Shown: positions 17,392 through 30,713 of the stretch, in pieces | Layout: every line of letters begins with the position of its first letter | Numbering within the stretch: position 1 is the first letter of the stretch | Assembly: GCA_001508005.1 (NCBI GenBank) | Contig: LGEZ01000010.1 | Coordinates: 1 to 64,000 of the forward strand | Direction: 5' to 3' | Length of the DNA: 64,000 bases | From: Clostridia bacterium 41_269 | GTDB lineage: Bacteria > Bacillota > DTU086 | Notes under the pieces: generated by a model | Told to the model about the DNA's origin: nothing | Seen by the model: the letters and a program-made list of their open reading frames with translations, nothing else | Database searches by the model: none | Translations under genes and position numbers: made by a program

Positions 17392-19792
17392 CTATATAAA
17401 GAGCAAAATTTTAGTTTTTGATGGTGCTATGGGAACAGAACTGCAGAAAATGGGACTTTCAGAAAACGAACCTCCTGAAATATGGAATATAAAGAAACCT
17501 GAATTAATTGTAAAGATTCACAGAGCATATTTTAAAGCTGGAGCTAAAGCGGTGACTACCAATACTTTTGGTGCTAATAGAATGAAACTTGCGGAATACG
17601 GACTTGCTCATCGTGTGGAGGAGTTAAATACAGCTGGGGTTAGGCTTGCCAGAAAAGCTGTGGGTTCCGAAGGATTTGTTGCTGCTTCTATAGGTCCTTT
17701 AGGGGTTTTTATTGAGCCCTTGGGAGAATTATCTTTTGATGAGGCCTATGAAATTTTTTTTGAACAGGCTAAGGCTTTAACGAAAGCTGGTGCCGATGCC
17801 ATTATATTGGAAACAATGTCCGATTTGGGTGAAATTAGGGCAGCTCTCCTAGCTGTTAAAGATGCTGCAGATATTCCTGTAATTACATCTATGACCTATG
17901 CGGAAGGAGAAAGAACCCTTACTGGAACAGATCCAGAAACCGCTGCGGTTGTTTTAGAAAGCTTGGGTGCCGATGTTATAGGGGTAAATTGTTCAGGAGG
18001 TCCCAGAGAACTGGAGAAAGTTGTTGAGATTTTGTGCAGTTCCACTAATTTACCAATTCTTGTGGAACCCAATGCAGGTATGCCGGAGCTTATCAATGGT
18101 TGCACTGTGTTTAAGGAATCTCCCCAGAACATGGCTACTTTTGCCAGAAAGTTTGCTTCTTTTGGAGCAGTAATGATCGGTTCTTGCTGTGGAAGTACTC
18201 CAGAGCATACCGCTGCCATTGCAGGAGAGCTTAAAGGATTAAAACCAATCAAAAGAACAAAACACTTTCCATTGAGAGTGACAGGACGTTCAAAAACGGA
18301 AAAAATAGGCGGCAGCGGTTTTCCTGTTATAATTGGAGAGCGCATAAATCCCACAGGGAAAAAACATTTGACCGACGAGATCCGCGAGGGAAAAACAACT
18401 ATAATAAAAGCTGAGGCAATTTCTCAGGAAAAAGCTGGTGCTCACCTTCTTGATGTTAATGTAGGGGTTCCCGGTGTTGATGAACCTCTATTAATGAAGA
18501 CTGCAGTACAAGCAGTACAAAGTGTTGTTAATACTCCTCTTGTTCTGGATAGTTCCAATCCCCAAGCCCTTGAGGCAGGTTTAAAGGCCTACCATGGAAA
18601 AGCAGTTGTAAATTCTGTTACGGCAGAAGCAGAATCCATGGAAAAAATACTGCCATTGGTAAAAAGATACGGAGCTGCAGTAATAGGATTGTGTCTTAAC
18701 GAACGGGGAATTCCGGAAAGTGCAGTGGAGAGATTGGCAGCAGCTGAAAGGATTTTGAGTTATGCAGAGAAATTTGGTATACATTCCCAAAACCTAATTA
18801 TCGACAGCCTTACCCTTACTGTAAGTGCTGAGCCCAGATCAGCATTGGTTACTTTAGAAAGCATAGAGCTTGTTAAAGAAAAACTAGGTCTATCTACAGT
18901 GCTTGGAGTATCCAATATATCATACGGACTGCCCATGCGGTCAATGCTTAACAGGGCTTTTTTGGCGGCGGCTTTAGAGAGGGGCCTTGATGCTGCTATT
19001 ATTAATCCTTTGGATGAAGATATGATGGATATTTTTTATGCAGGTGCAGTGATTGCAGGCAGAGATAAAAATGCTGAACATTATGTTAAACGGTTTTCTA
19101 AAATTGCCCATGACCAAAAAGAGAAAACCCCAAGAGAAGATAAGGAAAAGCTAAAGGGTGAACAGACATTTCATCCATTGATGGAAGCTGTAATAAAAGG
19201 GGAAAAAGAAAATATAGCAGCATTAGTGGAAAAGTATTTAAAGGATATCAAACCTATGGATATATTAAATAAATATCTCATACCAGCCCTTGAAGAAGTG
19301 GGAAGAAAGTATGAAAAAGGAGAATATTTTCTTCCTCAGCTGATGCTGTCTGCGGATACAATGCAGGAAGCGTTTAAACGTTTGAAACCAGAGTTGGAAA
19401 AGGGAGGAGAAAGTTCCAGAGGAACTGTGGTATTGGCAACTGTAAGAGGAGATATACATGACATTGGGAAAAACATAGTGGCAATAATGCTTAGAAACCA
19501 TGGTTTTAACGTTGTTGACCTTGGCAAAAATGTTCCCAATGAAAAAATTATAGAAGCTGCTAAAGAAACAAATGCGGAGGTTATAGGTTTGAGTGCTCTT
19601 ATGACAACGACAATGCCTCGTATGGGAGAAATTATCGACATGATAAAAGAAAATAATTTACCTTTTAAAGTAATAGTTGGGGGAGCTGCTGTAACCGAAA
19701 AATATGCTCAGGAGATAGGAGCGGACGGCTATGGCAAAGATGCTGTGGCAGCGGTAAATATAGTAAGTAAGCTTATTGAAGGAAAGAATTAA
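17360..19792 (+). CDS. metH: cobalamin-dependent methionine synthase (homocysteine-, pterin- and B12-binding domains, no activation domain)
   Basis: FDGAMGTELQKMG, GERINPTGKK, DIHDIGKNIV (B12-binding DxHxxG). Confidence 0.95.
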   Translation: MGTALKTEILNYIKSKILVFDGAMGTELQKMGLSENEPPEIWNIKKPELIVKIHRAYFKAGAKAVTTNTFGANRMKLAEYGLAHRVEELNTAGVRLARKAVGSEGFVAASIGPLGVFIEPLGELSFDEAYEIFFEQAKALTKAGADAIILETMSDLGEIRAALLAVKDAADIPVITSMTYAEGERTLTGTDPETAAVVLESLGADVIGVNCSGGPRELEKVVEILCSSTNLPILVEPNAGMPELINGCTVFKESPQNMATFARKFASFGAVMIGSCCGSTPEHTAAIAGELKGLKPIKRTKHFPLRVTGRSKTEKIGGSGFPVIIGERINPTGKKHLTDEIREGKTTIIKAEAISQEKAGAHLLDVNVGVPGVDEPLLMKTAVQAVQSVVNTPLVLDSSNPQALEAGLKAYHGKAVVNSVTAEAESMEKILPLVKRYGAAVIGLCLNERGIPESAVERLAAAERILSYAEKFGIHSQNLIIDSLTLTVSAEPRSALVTLESIELVKEKLGLSTVLGVSNISYGLPMRSMLNRAFLAAALERGLDAAIINPLDEDMMDIFYAGAVIAGRDKNAEHYVKRFSKIAHDQKEKTPREDKEKLKGEQTFHPLMEAVIKGEKENIAALVEKYLKDIKPMDILNKYLIPALEEVGRKYEKGEYFLPQLMLSADTMQEAFKRLKPELEKGGESSRGTVVLATVRGDIHDIGKNIVAIMLRNHGFNVVDLGKNVPNEKIIEAAKETNAEVIGLSALMTTTMPRMGEIIDMIKENNLPFKVIVGGAAVTEKYAQEIGADGYGKDAVAAVNIVSKLIEGKN

Positions 19793-20806
19793 ACAAAATA
19801 TTCCACCGTTGCTTCTTTAAATAGGCTGTTGATGTTTTTTATAAAAAATTCTTTAGCATCACTCATAAGGCCTTTGGGATAAATATATTTTCCGTATCCA
19901 AATTGACCAAATTTAAATCTGCGCTTTTCTTCATCCATGGAAAGCTGCGTGTTAGGAAAAACATCCAATATATTTGATTTTGCTCTTTTGGTAAAGCGGT
20001 GGGTTATAAGCTCAAAGGAAAGGGGAATATCTGAGATAAACCTTTTTATGGTTTTGAGCAGTTCAAGGTAGTTGTGCTGCCAGTTATCTTCTAGAAAAAT
20101 AGGTGCGATCATAAAACCAAGGGGATAACCTGCATTAGAAACTTTTTCTGCGGCTTTTAACCTTTCTTCAAGGGCTGGAGTTCCGTGTTCGAAGTTTTTT
20201 ATAACCTCAGGCAGATTTATGCTGAAGCGAAAGTGCGTTTTCCTTTTATGTTCAATGGTAAGCAGGCTGTCAACATTGGTAAATTTCGTCACAAAACGAA
20301 AACGGCCAAACTGCTGTTCTGAAAAAAAAATTAATTGTCTGCTTCAAAGCACCCGTATATATCTCCACGGGAAGGGGATCACTTGTAGCGGCTCCTTCAA
20401 ATAAAGTTATTTCCGGTTTCCGCTGTTCCATATAATCTTTTGCAATGGATAAAATTTCGTCTATATTGACATATATGCGAATATATGGTTTTTTTCCTAG
20501 ATTAGTTGTAAGGTAGCAGTATTCACATTTTCCTGGGCAGCCTGTAACCAAAGGAAGCTGGAAATGGGCAGAAGGCCTGCATGTTTCAAATTTTTTGCTT
20601 TTTCTTGTACCTATAACAAGTGTGCTTTTTGCCTCTCTATATTTGCAGGAAGGAGTTTTTCCCGGTATTCCTAAGACACGATTGTGCGAAGTTGTATATT
20701 TTATTGGTATTCCTTTAGATTTAAAATATTCATATAGATTTTTTCCCAATGGATATTCTAAAGCTGCGGATTCTATATATACCCTTTTGGGAATGAAATT
20801 CTGCAT
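19789..20806 (-). pseudogene. splB: spore photoproduct lyase (radical SAM), frameshifted at an A9 run
   Basis: ORFs 20270-20806 (CPGKCEYC radical SAM motif) and 19789-20292 join in frame if one base is removed from A9 at 20322-20330. Confidence 0.85.
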
Positions 20807-21362: not shown

Positions 21363-21439
21363 TGGTGCCCGAGGCCGGATTTGAACCGGCACGTCCTAAG
21401 GAGGACCCGGGATTTTAAGTCCCGTGCGTCTGCCAAATT
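21363..21439. repeat. attL: duplicated tRNA-Leu(TAA) segment
   Basis: TGGTGCCCGAGGCC...CTGCCAAATT identical to 29240-29316. Confidence 0.95.
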
Positions 21440-23436: not shown

Positions 23437-23658
23437 ATGTTAACGATGTTAAGAATATGCCGCTTAAAAAAAGGAAAAACCCTTCGACAAGTAGCAAGGG
23501 AGCTGGGAGTTTCTGAAGTTGGACTCTGTCGGATAGAAAAAGGGCAGGCCTATATTCCACCAGCTTGGAGAAAGAAACTAATTAACTACTATGATGTTTC
23601 GCCTATTGAAATTTTTGACCCTGAAACTGGGTGGCCAGTCCTGATTAAGGAGGAATAA
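23437..23658 (+). CDS. XRE-family HTH regulator
   Basis: RLKKGKTLRQVARELGVSEVGLCRIEKGQ. Confidence 0.85.
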   Translation: MLTMLRICRLKKGKTLRQVARELGVSEVGLCRIEKGQAYIPPAWRKKLINYYDVSPIEIFDPETGWPVLIKEE

Positions 23659-23661
23659 AGG

Positions 23662-24012
23662 ATGGTTTTTAAGGTAATGACACCGCAAGGTGTACGGATT
23701 ATTGGCAGGATTGAGGGAAACACCCTCATAAAAACAGTGAAACGAAGCAAACATTTCCACCGTAAAACAAAAAGCTGGGGTATTCAGCTGGCAGCCATAC
23801 CCCAGCTTGAGCAAATAGGTGTAACGCAAATTCGCTTAAACATTAAAGACACTGGTGAAGCACTCACTGCCCCGCTGCAAACTTTGAAAACCAAAGGCTT
23901 TGTGGTTGACTACGGCTACGGCAAACAACTTCTTTTACCTGAGAAGTACTGGGAAGCAGAAGGAGTAAAGCAGTTAAACCTGTTTGAGGGGGTAGCTCTA
24001 TGGCAAGTTTAA
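23662..24012 (+). CDS. hypothetical element protein
   Basis: ORF between XRE and Prim-Pol genes, overlapping the latter. Confidence 0.7.
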   Translation: MVFKVMTPQGVRIIGRIEGNTLIKTVKRSKHFHRKTKSWGIQLAAIPQLEQIGVTQIRLNIKDTGEALTAPLQTLKTKGFVVDYGYGKQLLLPEKYWEAEGVKQLNLFEGVALWQV

Positions 24013-26111
24013 CATGCGAAAAACGAGCTGACAATATCTTTTATAAATTCGCAGTTTATTATCACAAGCTTGGCTTTAGCGTTATCCCCATAAATCCAAG
24101 GGATAAAAAGCCACTTGTACCGTGGCAGGAGTATCAGAATAGGAAAGCAACGGAAGAGGAAATAGCAAACTGGTGGAAAAAGTGGCCGAATGCGAATATA
24201 GGCATTGTTACAGGTGCAGTTTCCGGGATTATTGTTTTGGACATAGATGGGGAAGAAGGAGAAAAAAGTATAAAAGAACACGGCTTAGCACTTCCACCCA
24301 CATGGGTGTCCAAAACAGGTGGAGGTGGCTTCCATTACTTCTTTAAGCATCCGGGTGGTACGATTTCAAACTTCGCTAAAAGACTGCCAGGCATAGACCT
24401 TAGGGGGGATGGGGGCTATATAGTTGCCCCTCCCTCAATCCACCCCAGCGGTAATCGCTATCAGTGGGTGATAAGCCCAAAGGATGAAGAATTAGCGGAA
24501 CCGCCAGATTGGCTTCTTGAACTAATCCAAACCACCAACACAGGCAAGCTTGACCCAGAAGATTGGCAACGGGACATACCAGAAGGGCAGCGGAACGAAG
24601 AACTAACAAGAAGGGCTGGAAGCCTGCTTAGCAGAGGTATTCCACCAGCTGAAGCTTTAACTATGTTATTGGCATGGAACCAAAAACACTGTAAACCACC
24701 ATTACCTGAAAGAGAAGTAAAAACAATCGTTGAAAGCATAGCAAGGCGTGAAATGGAAAAAATTAACTCTGAATTCGTAATTCGTACAATGCATGAAGAA
24801 AAAAACGATGAAATGGAAAAATTTTCTTCTGAATTCGCAATTCGCAATTCTATTAACGAAAATTCTTCTTCATCCTTATGGCCGGAACCATTAGCACCGG
24901 AAGCCTTCTATGGCCTTGCTGGGGACTTTGTTAAAACCATAGAACCCCACACGGAAGCAGACCCAGCAGCGTTGCTGTTTACTTTCCTAACCATGTACGG
25001 GAATGTGATTGGTCGCAATGCTTACTTTGTAGCTGAAGCGGATAAGCACTATACCAACCTTTTTACCTGTTTGGTAGGTGCTTCAGCAAAGGGAAGAAAG
25101 GGAGTATCCTTTGGCCAAGCATATAAGCTTTTTGATGCTGTTGATGAGGCATGGGCAAAGGAAAGGATAACCCAAGGGCTTTCATCTGGTGAAGACTTGA
25201 TTTGGGCAGTGAGGGATGAACAGCGGAAAATAGAGGTAGACAAAAAGACTGGAGAAGAAAAAGAAATGGTCATTGTTGATGGTATCAAGGATAAGAGACT
25301 GCTGGTTGTGGAACAGGAATTCGCTTCAGCAATAAGAGTGTTAAAACGGGAAGGAAACACATTATCAGCCGTAATCAGAAAAGCATGGGATGATGGTAGC
25401 TTAAATGTGCTTACCAAAAATAATCACGCACAAGCTACCAATGCCCATATCAGCATTATAGCCCATATTACCAAGGCTGAACTGCTGCGGTATTTAGAAG
25501 CCACAGAAGCAGCCAATGGTTTTGGTAACCGCTTTCTTTGGGTATGTGTTAAGCGGTCAAAGTGCCTTCCTGAAGGTGGCAGGCTTCATGAAGTAGATTT
25601 TGCCCCACTACTTAGAAGGCTTAAAGATGCGGTAGAATTTGGCAGGGTAGCGGGAGAGTTGAAACGGGATGAAGAAGCAAGGGAGTTGTGGTATGAAGTT
25701 TACCCTGAACTCTCAGAAGGAAAACCGGGGCTTTTTGGTGCCATGATAGCAAGGGCTGAAGCTCAGGTCATGAGGCTGGCTTCTATATATGCACTGCTTG
25801 ACCAATCAAGCTACATACGACTGGAACACTTACAAGCAGCTTTGGCTTGCTGGGACTATGTTGAAGCTTCAGCAAGGTTTATTTTCGGCGATAGCTTAGG
25901 AGACCCAACGGCTGATGAAATACTAAGGGCATTGAAAGAAGCTGGGGAACAGGGAATGACCAGAACGGAAATTATTAACCTTTTCGGGAGAAACAAAAAT
26001 GCTAGGGAAATCAGCAAGGCTTTAAGTCAATTAGCAGAAAGTGGCATAGCGTACTGTAAAAACATTACCAATGAGAACAACCGGAGAGTAGAAATATGGT
26101 TTAAAACATAA
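24000..26111 (+). CDS. bifunctional DNA primase/polymerase (Prim-Pol) with C-terminal DUF3987-like ATPase region
   Basis: GFSVIPINPRDKKPLVPW, DIDGEEG, GGGGFHYFF, GIDLRGDGGYIVAPPSIHPSG; PriCT-like segment; GASAKGRKGVS. Confidence 0.88.
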   Translation: MASLTCEKRADNIFYKFAVYYHKLGFSVIPINPRDKKPLVPWQEYQNRKATEEEIANWWKKWPNANIGIVTGAVSGIIVLDIDGEEGEKSIKEHGLALPPTWVSKTGGGGFHYFFKHPGGTISNFAKRLPGIDLRGDGGYIVAPPSIHPSGNRYQWVISPKDEELAEPPDWLLELIQTTNTGKLDPEDWQRDIPEGQRNEELTRRAGSLLSRGIPPAEALTMLLAWNQKHCKPPLPEREVKTIVESIARREMEKINSEFVIRTMHEEKNDEMEKFSSEFAIRNSINENSSSSLWPEPLAPEAFYGLAGDFVKTIEPHTEADPAALLFTFLTMYGNVIGRNAYFVAEADKHYTNLFTCLVGASAKGRKGVSFGQAYKLFDAVDEAWAKERITQGLSSGEDLIWAVRDEQRKIEVDKKTGEEKEMVIVDGIKDKRLLVVEQEFASAIRVLKREGNTLSAVIRKAWDDGSLNVLTKNNHAQATNAHISIIAHITKAELLRYLEATEAANGFGNRFLWVCVKRSKCLPEGGRLHEVDFAPLLRRLKDAVEFGRVAGELKRDEEARELWYEVYPELSEGKPGLFGAMIARAEAQVMRLASIYALLDQSSYIRLEHLQAALACWDYVEASARFIFGDSLGDPTADEILRALKEAGEQGMTRTEIINLFGRNKNAREISKALSQLAESGIAYCKNITNENNRRVEIWFKT
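24750..24850 (+). repeat. in-frame tandem ~60-bp repeat inside the Prim-Pol gene, related to the intergenic GAATTCGTAATTCGT repeats
   Basis: TGAAATGGAAAAA(N)TTCTGAATTCGNAATTCGNA twice with 60-nt period, encoding EMEKINSEFVIRT / EMEKFSSEFAIRN. Confidence 0.8.
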
Positions 26112-26114
26112 AAA

Positions 26115-26182
26115 ACGAATTTACGAATTACGAATTTTACGAATTCAGAGGAAAAATTTTACTCTGAATTCGTAATTCGTAA
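26115..26182. repeat. ACGAATT-iteron palindromic repeat, copy 1
   Basis: ACGAATT x4 then AATTCGT x2 in inverted orientation around ggaaaaattttac. Confidence 0.85.
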
Positions 26183-26213
26183 CTTCTTCTAAAAAATTTG
26201 GAGGGTATTTGAA

Positions 26214-26555: not shown

Positions 26556-26629
26556 TTACGAATTTACGAATTACGAATTTTACGAATTCAGAGGAAAAAT
26601 TTTACTCTGAATTCGTAAAATTCGTAATT
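26556..26629. repeat. ACGAATT-iteron palindromic repeat, copy 2
   Basis: AATTACGAATTTTACGAATTCAGA / TCTGAATTCGTAAAATTCGTAATT, 24-bp perfect inverted repeat. Confidence 0.88.
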
Positions 26630-26803: not shown

Positions 26804-27220
26804 ATGACAGCACTTCCCACCCATATAAAGCGGTTTTGCAAGGGTATTTTGCGACAGTATCCACTGATGAAAAAAGAACTGGCTGCTTTAGAGGAGGAAA
26901 GAAAGGCTGTAGCAGAAGCTGTTTCTACAGCTACATGGAAGGAACCAGCAAGGGTAAAAGCCATTGGTGATAGAACCGCTGCCCAAGCATTTAAGCTTCT
27001 AAGGTTATCTGAACAATGGCAGCAGGTGCATTTTTACGTTAAAGCCGTGGAAGATTTACTGGAATACCTTGATGAAGAAAAGAAGGAATTGGTTAAGCTG
27101 CGTTTCTTTAACAATTACCCACCCTGGAAAACAGCAGAGGAGCTAAACATGAGCGAAAGCAATGTTTACCGCTGGCAGGATGAAATTTTGACCTTACTAG
27201 CTCATAGGTTAGGGCTATGA
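26804..27220 (+). CDS. phage-type late transcription regulator (ArpU/RinA/DUF1492-like)
   Basis: C-terminal sigma-70 region 4-like HTH: LVKLRFFNNYPPWKTAEELNMSESNVYRWQDEIL. Confidence 0.6.
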   Translation: MTALPTHIKRFCKGILRQYPLMKKELAALEEERKAVAEAVSTATWKEPARVKAIGDRTAAQAFKLLRLSEQWQQVHFYVKAVEDLLEYLDEEKKELVKLRFFNNYPPWKTAEELNMSESNVYRWQDEILTLLAHRLGL

Positions 27221-27411: not shown

Positions 27412-27942
27412 ATGGCCAAAACGGACAAAAAAAGACAAAAGGAAGCCTTATCCATCGAGCAGCTTAATGCCATTGATTTATTGATACTTGGTAAATGCGA
27501 TAGGGAAGTTGCAGAAGCGGTTGGAGTTGCAAGGCAGACTGTAACCAGCTGGAGACTGTATAATCCCTACTTCCAAGCGGAACTTAACAGGAGAAGGAAA
27601 GAGGTATGGGGTGCAGCGGTGGATAAGTTTAGAAGCCTTCTCTTAAAGGCATTGGATACTGTTGAGAAGGCAGTTGAAGAAGGAGACGCAAAAGTGGCAA
27701 TTGAAGTCCTGCGGATGGCGGGAATGGACATGACGAAAGGAGGAAGCACCTTAGGGAGTTACCTTATTGGTGCTGATGACCCAGAACAGATACTGGAGGA
27801 AATAACAGAAAAGAAAGCCAGGGAAGAAAGGCTTAGGGTGTTTCCACCACCTACTGATTGGGAAAAGAAAAAGACCTTGCATGAACTTGAGGAACTGGCA
27901 AGAAAGCTTGAAGGGATTACCAAAGCAGATAAGGGAACATAG
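27412..27942 (+). CDS. phage HTH protein, possible terminase small subunit-like
   Basis: N-terminal HTH (LLILGKCDREVAEAVGVARQTVTSWRLYNPYFQAELNRRR) typical of phBC6A51/TerS-like proteins. Confidence 0.5.
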   Translation: MAKTDKKRQKEALSIEQLNAIDLLILGKCDREVAEAVGVARQTVTSWRLYNPYFQAELNRRRKEVWGAAVDKFRSLLLKALDTVEKAVEEGDAKVAIEVLRMAGMDMTKGGSTLGSYLIGADDPEQILEEITEKKAREERLRVFPPPTDWEKKKTLHELEELARKLEGITKADKGT

Positions 27943-28114
27943 CGGAACAAAAAATACCCCCCTGCTTCAAAGGAGGGTTTTTCACAAGACCGCAGCAGCT
28001 GCCTTCAAAAAACCCCCAGACCAATGCCTTGCATGACGGGGGTTGTTAAGTTTTGTTAAGGTGCAAATGCTGAATGTGATGTAAAAAAAAAGCCTTTTAA
28101 AAAAATAGGGAAAA

Positions 28115-28215
28115 TATCGTCATTACCGTCATTATCGTCATACCCGTTGAGTATCAACGGTTTCAGAATGACGATATTTAATTTTTAATCGTCATAGTAT
28201 CGTCATTATCGTCAT
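28115..28215. repeat. TATCGTCAT iteron array (six direct, one inverted)
   Basis: tatcgtcat-taccgtcat-tatcgtcat at 28115-28141, atgacgata at 28168-28176, aatcgtcat at 28187-28195, tatcgtcat-tatcgtcat at 28198-28215. Confidence 0.9.
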
Positions 28216-28221
28216 TGGTTT

Positions 28222-29157
28222 TTACTTTATCCTCCTACTTGCCCGTTTACCCATCTGAGCCAGCTTATTAACCGGACTGGCTTTTTCGTGGGCTTTTTTA
28301 ATGTCATCATGTAGGTAGCGAATGTATCTTTTGGTCATGCTTAAATCCTGGTGCCCCAGTATTCTCTGCAGTGCGAACGGGTCATTGGCTTCTTTAAGAA
28401 ATTCAATGGCAAAGCTGTGGCGTAATCCGTAGGGTGTAACCTTAACCCCTGCTTTTTTGCAGTATTTTCTCAGTCTTGCTGCCCAGATGTGGCGGTTTAA
28501 TGGCCTTGCATTTTCAGTAGCAAAAAGCGGTACATCTTCTCCCCACCATGCAGGCCTTACCTTCAGGAACTTCGTCAAAGCCTGGGTAGTGATTGGCGAA
28601 AGCACTAAAGTGCGTCCCACACGTGTTTTAGCTGCTTCCTGGCGTATATATAATTCCCTGGCTTCAAGGTTTAAGTCGCTTACCCTCACTTGGAACAATT
28701 CACCCGGCCTTGCTCCTGTGTCTATTTGTGTTAAAAGAAGGCAGTAGTCCCTTAACCCAGCATAGCTTCGCTTATCAGGCTGCTGTAGAAGCTTCTTTAC
28801 GGCCTCCAGGGGAACATGTCTTATTTTGTTCAAATCTTCCTTGGCTTTTCTTATATCCTGGGCTGGGTTGTTAGGCAGATAACCTTCTTTTACACACCAG
28901 TTAAAAAAGGCTTTAATGTAGCGGAGGCGAACGTTGCGGTACCCAGGGGAAGAAGGCTGGCTGAAGTATCGAATGACGGCTTTGCGTAATGCTTCATAAG
29001 TTGTACCTTGGCAGGTCTCCAGGAACCTACCGACATGACGGCGGTAGTCGTTCAAGGTGCATTGTGCTAATCCGTCTGCTTCTCTTGCAAGGAGGAACTC
29101 TTCCAGGGCTAAGGATAAATCAGGCAACCTGGTATTGAGTTTTGCAATTTTCTTCAT
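28222..29157 (-). CDS. tyrosine recombinase/integrase
   Basis: GARPGELFQVRVSDL, TPYGLRHSFAIEFLKEANDPFALQRILGHQDLSMTKRYIRYL. Confidence 0.93.
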   Translation of the reverse strand: MKKIAKLNTRLPDLSLALEEFLLAREADGLAQCTLNDYRRHVGRFLETCQGTTYEALRKAVIRYFSQPSSPGYRNVRLRYIKAFFNWCVKEGYLPNNPAQDIRKAKEDLNKIRHVPLEAVKKLLQQPDKRSYAGLRDYCLLLTQIDTGARPGELFQVRVSDLNLEARELYIRQEAAKTRVGRTLVLSPITTQALTKFLKVRPAWWGEDVPLFATENARPLNRHIWAARLRKYCKKAGVKVTPYGLRHSFAIEFLKEANDPFALQRILGHQDLSMTKRYIRYLHDDIKKAHEKASPVNKLAQMGKRASRRIK

Positions 29158-29239: not shown

Positions 29240-29316
29240 TGGTGCCCGAGGCCGGATTTGAACCGGCACGTCCTAAGGAGGACCCGGGATTTTAAGTCCC
29301 GTGCGTCTGCCAAATT
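29240..29316. repeat. attR: segment of the intact tRNA-Leu(TAA)
   Basis: identical to 21363-21439. Confidence 0.95.
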
Positions 29317-29330
29317 CCGCCACTCGGGCA
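29243..29330 (-). tRNA. tRNA-Leu (anticodon TAA)
   Basis: TGCCCGAG...CTCGGGCA, anticodon arm CGGGA-CTTAAAA-TCCCG. Confidence 0.94.
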
Positions 29331-29945: not shown

Positions 29946-30713
29946 TTAGTTAGCTGCTGCACCTTCTTTTTTATAAAGCTTTATAAAATCGAAAATAAAT
30001 TTTAGTTCTTTTTCATTACAGTTGGATATTAATCTTAGTACCGATTGGACTTTTTCATCGCACAACAGCATTTTAAGGTCTGGGCTCATTTGTTCTATAA
30101 ACTGCTCTAAACAGAAATCATCATCATTTATGATAAAGTAGCAAGGGGAGACGCCCAGTTCCTTTGCGATTTTTTCTATTGTTTGTAATGAAGGCTGAAC
30201 CCTTCCTTGTTCAATTTGCCCAATAAGCCCTGCAGAGACGCCGGCTCCCTTTGCCAATTCTGCTTGGGTAATGCCCTGTTCCTCTCTGAGTTTTTTCAGC
30301 TTTTTCCCCAATCCCGTGGGTTCATTTAAAATTTTTCCTAATGGTATATCTAAAACTTCAGATATTTTTTTTAAAGTTTTTATAGAGGGCTTAACATTTC
30401 CCCTTTCAATTTCACTTAAATACGAAGAAGAAATTTCCAATTTTTGGGCCAGCTCTGTAAGAGTTAAACCTTTTTTATTTCTTATCAACCTCAGCTTTGT
30501 TCCTAAATTGATATCCTGAGCTTCTAAAAGCTGACTTTTATCTATATTTAAGGCTTCTGCGATTTTTTGAATTGTTTTAAGGGATGGATTTGTTAAGCCC
30601 TGTTCAATTTCACTCATGTAGGAAACGGAAATATCTGCCTTCTTCGCGAACTGGGAAAGAGTATAACCCCTTTCTTCTCTAAGCTTTCGTATTTTTGCGC
30701 CATCTACTTTCAT
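29946..30713 (-). CDS. regulator with three tandem XRE/HTH_3 domains
   Basis: three repeats: KIRKLREERGYTLSQFAKKADIS..., KLRLIRNKKGLTLTELAQKLEIS..., KLKKLREEQGITQAELAKGAGVS... Confidence 0.92.
   Translation of the reverse strand: MKVDGAKIRKLREERGYTLSQFAKKADISVSYMSEIEQGLTNPSLKTIQKIAEALNIDKSQLLEAQDINLGTKLRLIRNKKGLTLTELAQKLEISSSYLSEIERGNVKPSIKTLKKISEVLDIPLGKILNEPTGLGKKLKKLREEQGITQAELAKGAGVSAGLIGQIEQGRVQPSLQTIEKIAKELGVSPCYFIINDDDFCLEQFIEQMSPDLKMLLCDEKVQSVLRLISNCNEKELKFIFDFIKLYKKEGAAAN

Follow-up and report, generated by a model that had tools for sequence, protein, structure and literature searches.

We found seven copies of the 9-mer TATCGTCAT crowded into positions 28115–28215 of the 64-kb stretch of DNA analysed here (the window), beside the integrase gene of an integrated element. 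From its sequence, we read this array with moderate confidence as a second, orphan origin-type iteron locus of a phage-satellite-like element. The iterons, two sets and one inverted copy, surround an A/T-only stretch and a hairpin; a TATCGTCAT-binding initiator would assemble on both flanks and open the A/T stretch. The array would descend from an origin normally embedded in another kind of primase-helicase gene, the kind found in a related element (L003). The sequence-only reading had listed a second origin among its suggestions, and this one gains support from the origin-type layout and from a homology that leads, via an integrase-side copy in L003, to an array inside the L003 helicase gene.

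The integrated element

The array is part of a 7.9-kb island at a tRNA-Leu gene, 77 bp of which are repeated at the two ends (Table 1). Besides the proteins listed in the table, the island encodes a 116-aa protein, and the C-terminus of its Prim-Pol/helicase-like protein has a helix-turn-helix match (HTH_20, 3e-4). We saw neither capsid nor lysis genes in the element. It thus has the gene set of a phage-inducible island (PICI), namely integrase, attachment repeats, primase/rep and terS without capsid or lysis genes, and judged by these genes it appears phage-satellite-like. The integrase gene is convergent with terS, unlike the PICI arrangement. The host genome carries a second integrase, 77–78% identical, beside a tRNA-Gly gene (G000:C25:97527–98456; L083), in an element without the array.

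Table 1. Features of the element, with positions in the window
Feature	Position	Strand	Remarks
Distal attachment repeat	21363..21439		77-bp exact copy of the tRNA-Leu 3' part; 100% direct repeat with 29240-29316
XRE-type regulator	23437..23658	+	PF13560 3.4e-9
Prim-Pol / PriCT_1 / helicase-like protein	24000..26111	+	Pfam PF09250 5e-43, PF08708; phrog_5311 helicase
First iteron set, TTACGAATT	26115..26183		directly behind the primase-helicase gene; presumed main origin
Second copy of the TTACGAATT set	26556..26629		440 bp further on
ArpU / sigma-region-4-like regulator	26804..27220	+	phrog_36 1.5e-14, PF08281
HTH protein, terminase-small-subunit-like (TerS-like)	27412..27942	+	phrog_2538 1.7e-9, phrog_7344, phrog_3218
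Left iteron set	28115..28141	+	three abutting units, TATCGTCAT / TACCGTCAT / TATCGTCAT
Hairpin CCGTTGA-GTA-TCAACGG	28144..28160		perfect 7-bp stem
Inverted iteron, exact TATCGTCAT	28168..28176	-	within 13-bp perfect inverted repeat
10-bp all-A/T stretch, TTTAATTTTT	28177..28186		candidate melting site; same position in both L003 arrays
Right iteron set	28187..28215	+	AATCGTCAT, TATCGTCAT, TATCGTCAT
Tyrosine integrase	28222..29157	-	Pfam PF00589 8e-27
tRNA-Leu(taa) with tRNA-side attachment repeat 29240-29316	29240..29329	-	ARAGORN, repeat, Rfam

Layout and density of the array

Five of the seven units are exact, two have one mismatch, and one of the seven is inverted. The left-set units start at 28115, 28124 (TACCGTCAT, one mismatch) and 28133 and abut exactly; those of the right set start at 28187 (AATCGTCAT, one mismatch), 28198 and 28207, and the last two abut. 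These coordinates bear out the earlier description of three abutting 9-mers, one inverted copy and three direct copies. The same description placed the array 7 bp from the integrase stop; the actual gap is six bases, between the array end at 28215 and the end of the minus-strand integrase CDS at 28222. The hairpin and the A/T stretch were absent from it. A 13-bp perfect inverted repeat (28112–28124 / 28167–28179) encloses the hairpin, which folds inside this pair (z = -2.9), and the array strand beats 200 shuffles in folding. In L003, the counterpart of the hairpin is CCTTGATACGTAAGG. The A/T stretch separates the inverted iteron from the right-hand copies. We also considered CTTGATA in the hairpin as a rolling-circle nick site and dropped it: similar CCCTTGATA...AAGG hairpins look like terminators, and in L012, L015 and L106 they lie directly behind a gene or tRNA. 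The element has no HUH nuclease match in Pfam.

The array is non-coding, with no ORF of at least 60 aa spanning it. The terS-like and integrase genes converge on it, each with its 3' end facing the array, and a promoter scan of this junction found no promoter-like site. The array starts 172 bp past the TerS-like gene and about 2 kb beyond the end of the primase gene (28115 versus 26111). The tRNA-side attachment repeat, at 29240, is about 1,025 bp away on the far side of the integrase gene, in agreement with the earlier estimate of about 1 kb to attR.

Allowing one mismatch at most, TATCGTCAT occurs 20 times in the window against 8.3 expected, a count reached by none of 100 shuffles, and seven of the 20 copies crowd into 101 bp. 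One 7-mer occurs six times in the array, while dinucleotide-preserving shuffles of the element (n = 60) give at most three per 110 bp. A search of the 1.67-Mb host genome with the unit pair returned four matches, three in the array and the fourth a lone site with three mismatches; nowhere else in this genome does the pair form an array. The pattern GACGATA-(A/T)-ATCGTC gave, apart from the window, chance matches only in about 400 genomes of the phylum, and a second search with it matched only the two L003 arrays. This pattern was derived from these same arrays, so that the result speaks for its rarity and is not an independent confirmation. A 27-base pattern match in a genome of the same phylum (L002) was rejected as a chance match inside a coding gene.

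Homologous arrays in a related element

The array is patchy among the relatives, and we found two carriers, the window element and L003, with no near-identical element among the relatives. L003 is an element of a Tepidanaerobacteraceae MAG, and its integrase is 67% identical to that of the window. Its integrase-side array (L003 11197–11297, unit TATCGTCCAAT) lies beside the integrase gene and scores 60 in an alignment with the window array (z = 11.5), where shuffles average 21 and reach at most 40. Across 927 kb of DNA from related elements, no other stretch matches the window array as well, the next-best score being 46. Within L003, the integrase-side array is a paralogue of a second array located inside the helicase gene (score 65, shuffle maximum 34). 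In blastn, this pair matches over 122 bp at 69% identity (E 8e-6), and the match continues beyond the iterons into flanking DNA that codes for the helicase. Compared directly, the window array and the L003 in-gene array are modestly similar (z 4.2; score 36, with shuffles reaching 37), and the in-gene array ranks about 17th in an unbiased scan with the window array. The two nevertheless have direct units at identical offsets of +16, +27 and +36 from the inverted unit. Because the direct similarity is modest, the link between them rests on the L003 integrase-side copy and on this spacing.

Read by eye, the window array and both L003 arrays have a common plan: three abutting iterons, a hairpin, an inverted iteron, an AT-rich stretch and direct iterons. 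The units are more alike within arrays (0.76–0.85) than between arrays (0.55–0.62). In all three arrays, the main inverted unit fits the variant of its own array (0.80–0.92) better than those of the other arrays (0.55–0.65). Slippage cannot homogenise an inverted copy, and so a common binder is likely and is the simplest cause. Gene conversion between inverted copies may be an alternative cause of this homogeneity.

Iterons of the element and its relatives

Nearly all related elements have their iterons at the primase gene's 3' end. In at least 15 related elements, element-specific iterons lie within the Prim-Pol/helicase gene or at most about 170 bp past its 3' end, and such arrays are therefore likely origins. 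Similar helicases go with similar iteron units among these elements. The L003 and L087 helicases, for example, are 89% identical and both have a TGCGGAC unit, and L135 and L136, with helicases 61–65% identical to that of the window, have the unit TGCGAATTT. Since the unit tracks the helicase, as expected if the helicase binds the iterons, the TTACGAATT set directly behind the primase-helicase gene is likely the main origin of the window element. The TTACGAATT iterons were found in the element alone. Partial TTACGAATT copies are also present within the primase gene linker (24749–24844, peptide NSEFVIR...SSEFAIRNS), and thus iterons exist both inside and behind this gene.

The best match between the TATCGTCAT and TTACGAATT units is 7/11 and is not significant (p about 0.11), and it was fair to call the two sets unrelated. 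Because the window primase-helicase has its own TTACGAATT iterons, the integrase-side array would come from another replication module, either left over from it or acquired with it, and would have its own iteron specificity. That these arrays are origins, and that the window array is bound or active at present, we infer from their layout and relationships. Several observations count against the origin reading: the roughly 2 kb that separate the array from the primase gene, the modest direct similarity to the L003 in-gene array, the small number of carriers (two), a host genome in which no L003-type helicase was found, and a unit unlike the iterons beside the primase gene, so that the element's own initiator may not bind the array.

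Alternative explanations

The array may instead be a relic, now out of use: what is left, in decay, of a primase-helicase gene that once had its origin inside it. We think this rather unlikely. Other fragments of helicase/origin regions occur in non-coding DNA of L003, L087 and L165, and the L003 integrase-side copy contains helicase coding flank with a stop codon. The window element, moreover, has a different helicase type, and a matching initiator was not found in the host genome, where no L003-type helicase occurs and the shared Prim-Pol domain alone matches. However, five of the seven units are exact, and the units have changed together relative to those of L003, the inverted copy included. 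Such near-intact, jointly changed units suggest continued binding after the split. The protein responsible may be foreign: the element's own primase goes with another unit, and relatives with close integrase, TerS, XRE or ArpU proteins lack the array. A search of IMG/VR for helper-phage arrays gave lone or low-complexity matches, none with at least six units in 170 bp, and DNA-level searches of records from phages and plasmids returned no relative. A second origin could be tuned to the initiator of a helper phage or of a competing satellite, to steal replication or to serve as a decoy, and its specificity would then follow the foreign protein and not the element's own primase; we regard this specific version as improbable.

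The array lies just behind the TerS-like gene, and in phage lambda cosB is a small set of repeats bound by TerS (PMC6092414). A pac or cosB packaging site, bound by the TerS-like protein and marking the satellite DNA, would find further support in other elements, where the short repeat CGGACATTTTCGGAC is conserved in the interval from terS (or what remains of it) to int. However, L091 has a TerS 67% identical and no array, L003 has the array and no TerS, and the homology of the array is to an origin-type array and to no known packaging site, which makes a packaging role unlikely. At the corresponding place, L091, L087, L165 and L108 have just the short CGGACATTTTCGGAC repeat and no array. An array that adjoins the integrase gene of an element bounded by attachment repeats might be expected to bind the integrase at arm-type sites, or the integrase in complex with an excisionase, but this array is more than 1 kb from the attachment core, beyond the gene. 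It is also missing beside the integrases of the host genome's second element (77–78% identical), G187 (76%), G162 (74–79%) and L087, L165 and L091 (62–66%). These six loci, with equally or more similar integrases, uphold the doubt that the sequence-only reading had expressed about arm sites, and we give this explanation very little credence. That reading had also proposed a binding site for the element regulator, and the element does encode three predicted DNA-binding regulators (XRE 23437, ArpU 26804 and HTH 27412). An operator is nevertheless highly improbable in a convergent intergenic position with a negative promoter scan. The XRE promoter has no copies of the TATCGTCAT unit, and no array is present in relatives with XRE 54–59% and ArpU 68–70% identical; the XRE, ArpU and 116-aa proteins of such relatives are at least as close as those of L003. 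The proposal of a partition locus likewise finds no counterpart, as no predicted protein of the element has a ParA/ParB-type match in Pfam or PHROGs.

Comparison with known systems

The satellite phage P4, a small replicon whose initiator is a primase-helicase, has two separate iteron loci, ori and crr, and both carry the same repeat and use the same protein. The window element is similar in having two iteron loci, but its units differ between them. The in-gene arrays of L003, L087 and L165 have the same order of parts as the window array, with identical offsets in the case of L003. They are coding DNA in a helicase gene, whereas the window array is free-standing and has a changed unit (CGTCAT versus CGTCCGCA).

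Origins of Gram-negative PICIs always have two iteron sets around an AT-rich region (PMC6092414). The pri-rep-ori of PICIs and SaPIs is like the window array in its two sets of short iterons around an AT-rich stretch, and it too belongs to a small element with integrase, primase/rep and terS (PMC6092414). The left and right sets of the window array surround the all-A/T stretch in the same way. However, PICI origins follow the pri/rep genes, a position that the TTACGAATT set occupies in the window element, while the array lies behind terS next to int, and its units do not resemble those at the element's own primase gene. Judged by its parts, the array would work as PICI origins do; it differs in its position relative to the primase gene and in its unit, which is not that of the main origin. 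In the V. cholerae satellite PLE, the origin repeats are in non-coding DNA, and only one of several repeat types is used as an iteron (PMC7145576). Non-coding repeats of several types are common to PLE and the window element, but PLE differs in its RepA_N initiator and its longer, semi-palindromic repeats.

In these elements, the iteron array accompanies the primase-helicase, located within its gene or just behind it and with a lineage-specific unit, while free origin copies persist elsewhere, and orphan origins may thus make the history of an element readable. A second array with a code of its own beside the integrase gene suggests that spare origins are kept or swapped by such elements. If the window array is active, a small satellite would have two origins of different specificity, providing a simple route to initiator switching or to the use of another element's initiator.

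Other observations

About 1.2 kb of common non-coding DNA in L003 (11930–13075), L087 (2940–4090) and L165 (5815–6910) contains short repeats and decayed helicase/origin pieces. The CGGACATTTTCGGAC repeat is a 15-bp tandem that is conserved, amid otherwise diverged flanks, in the terS–integrase interval of five elements, some with a terS remnant only (L087:2620, L165:7213, L091:9904, L108:11140 and L089:10589); at the comparable place, the window has TGTTAAGTTTTGTTAAG at 28044. Outside the element, two adjacent minus-strand ORFs at 19789–20806 of the window appear to be a single radical-SAM, spore-photoproduct-lyase-like gene split by a frameshift. Just beyond the element, the 255-aa product of a minus-strand gene at 29946–30713 contains three XRE-type HTH domains in tandem.
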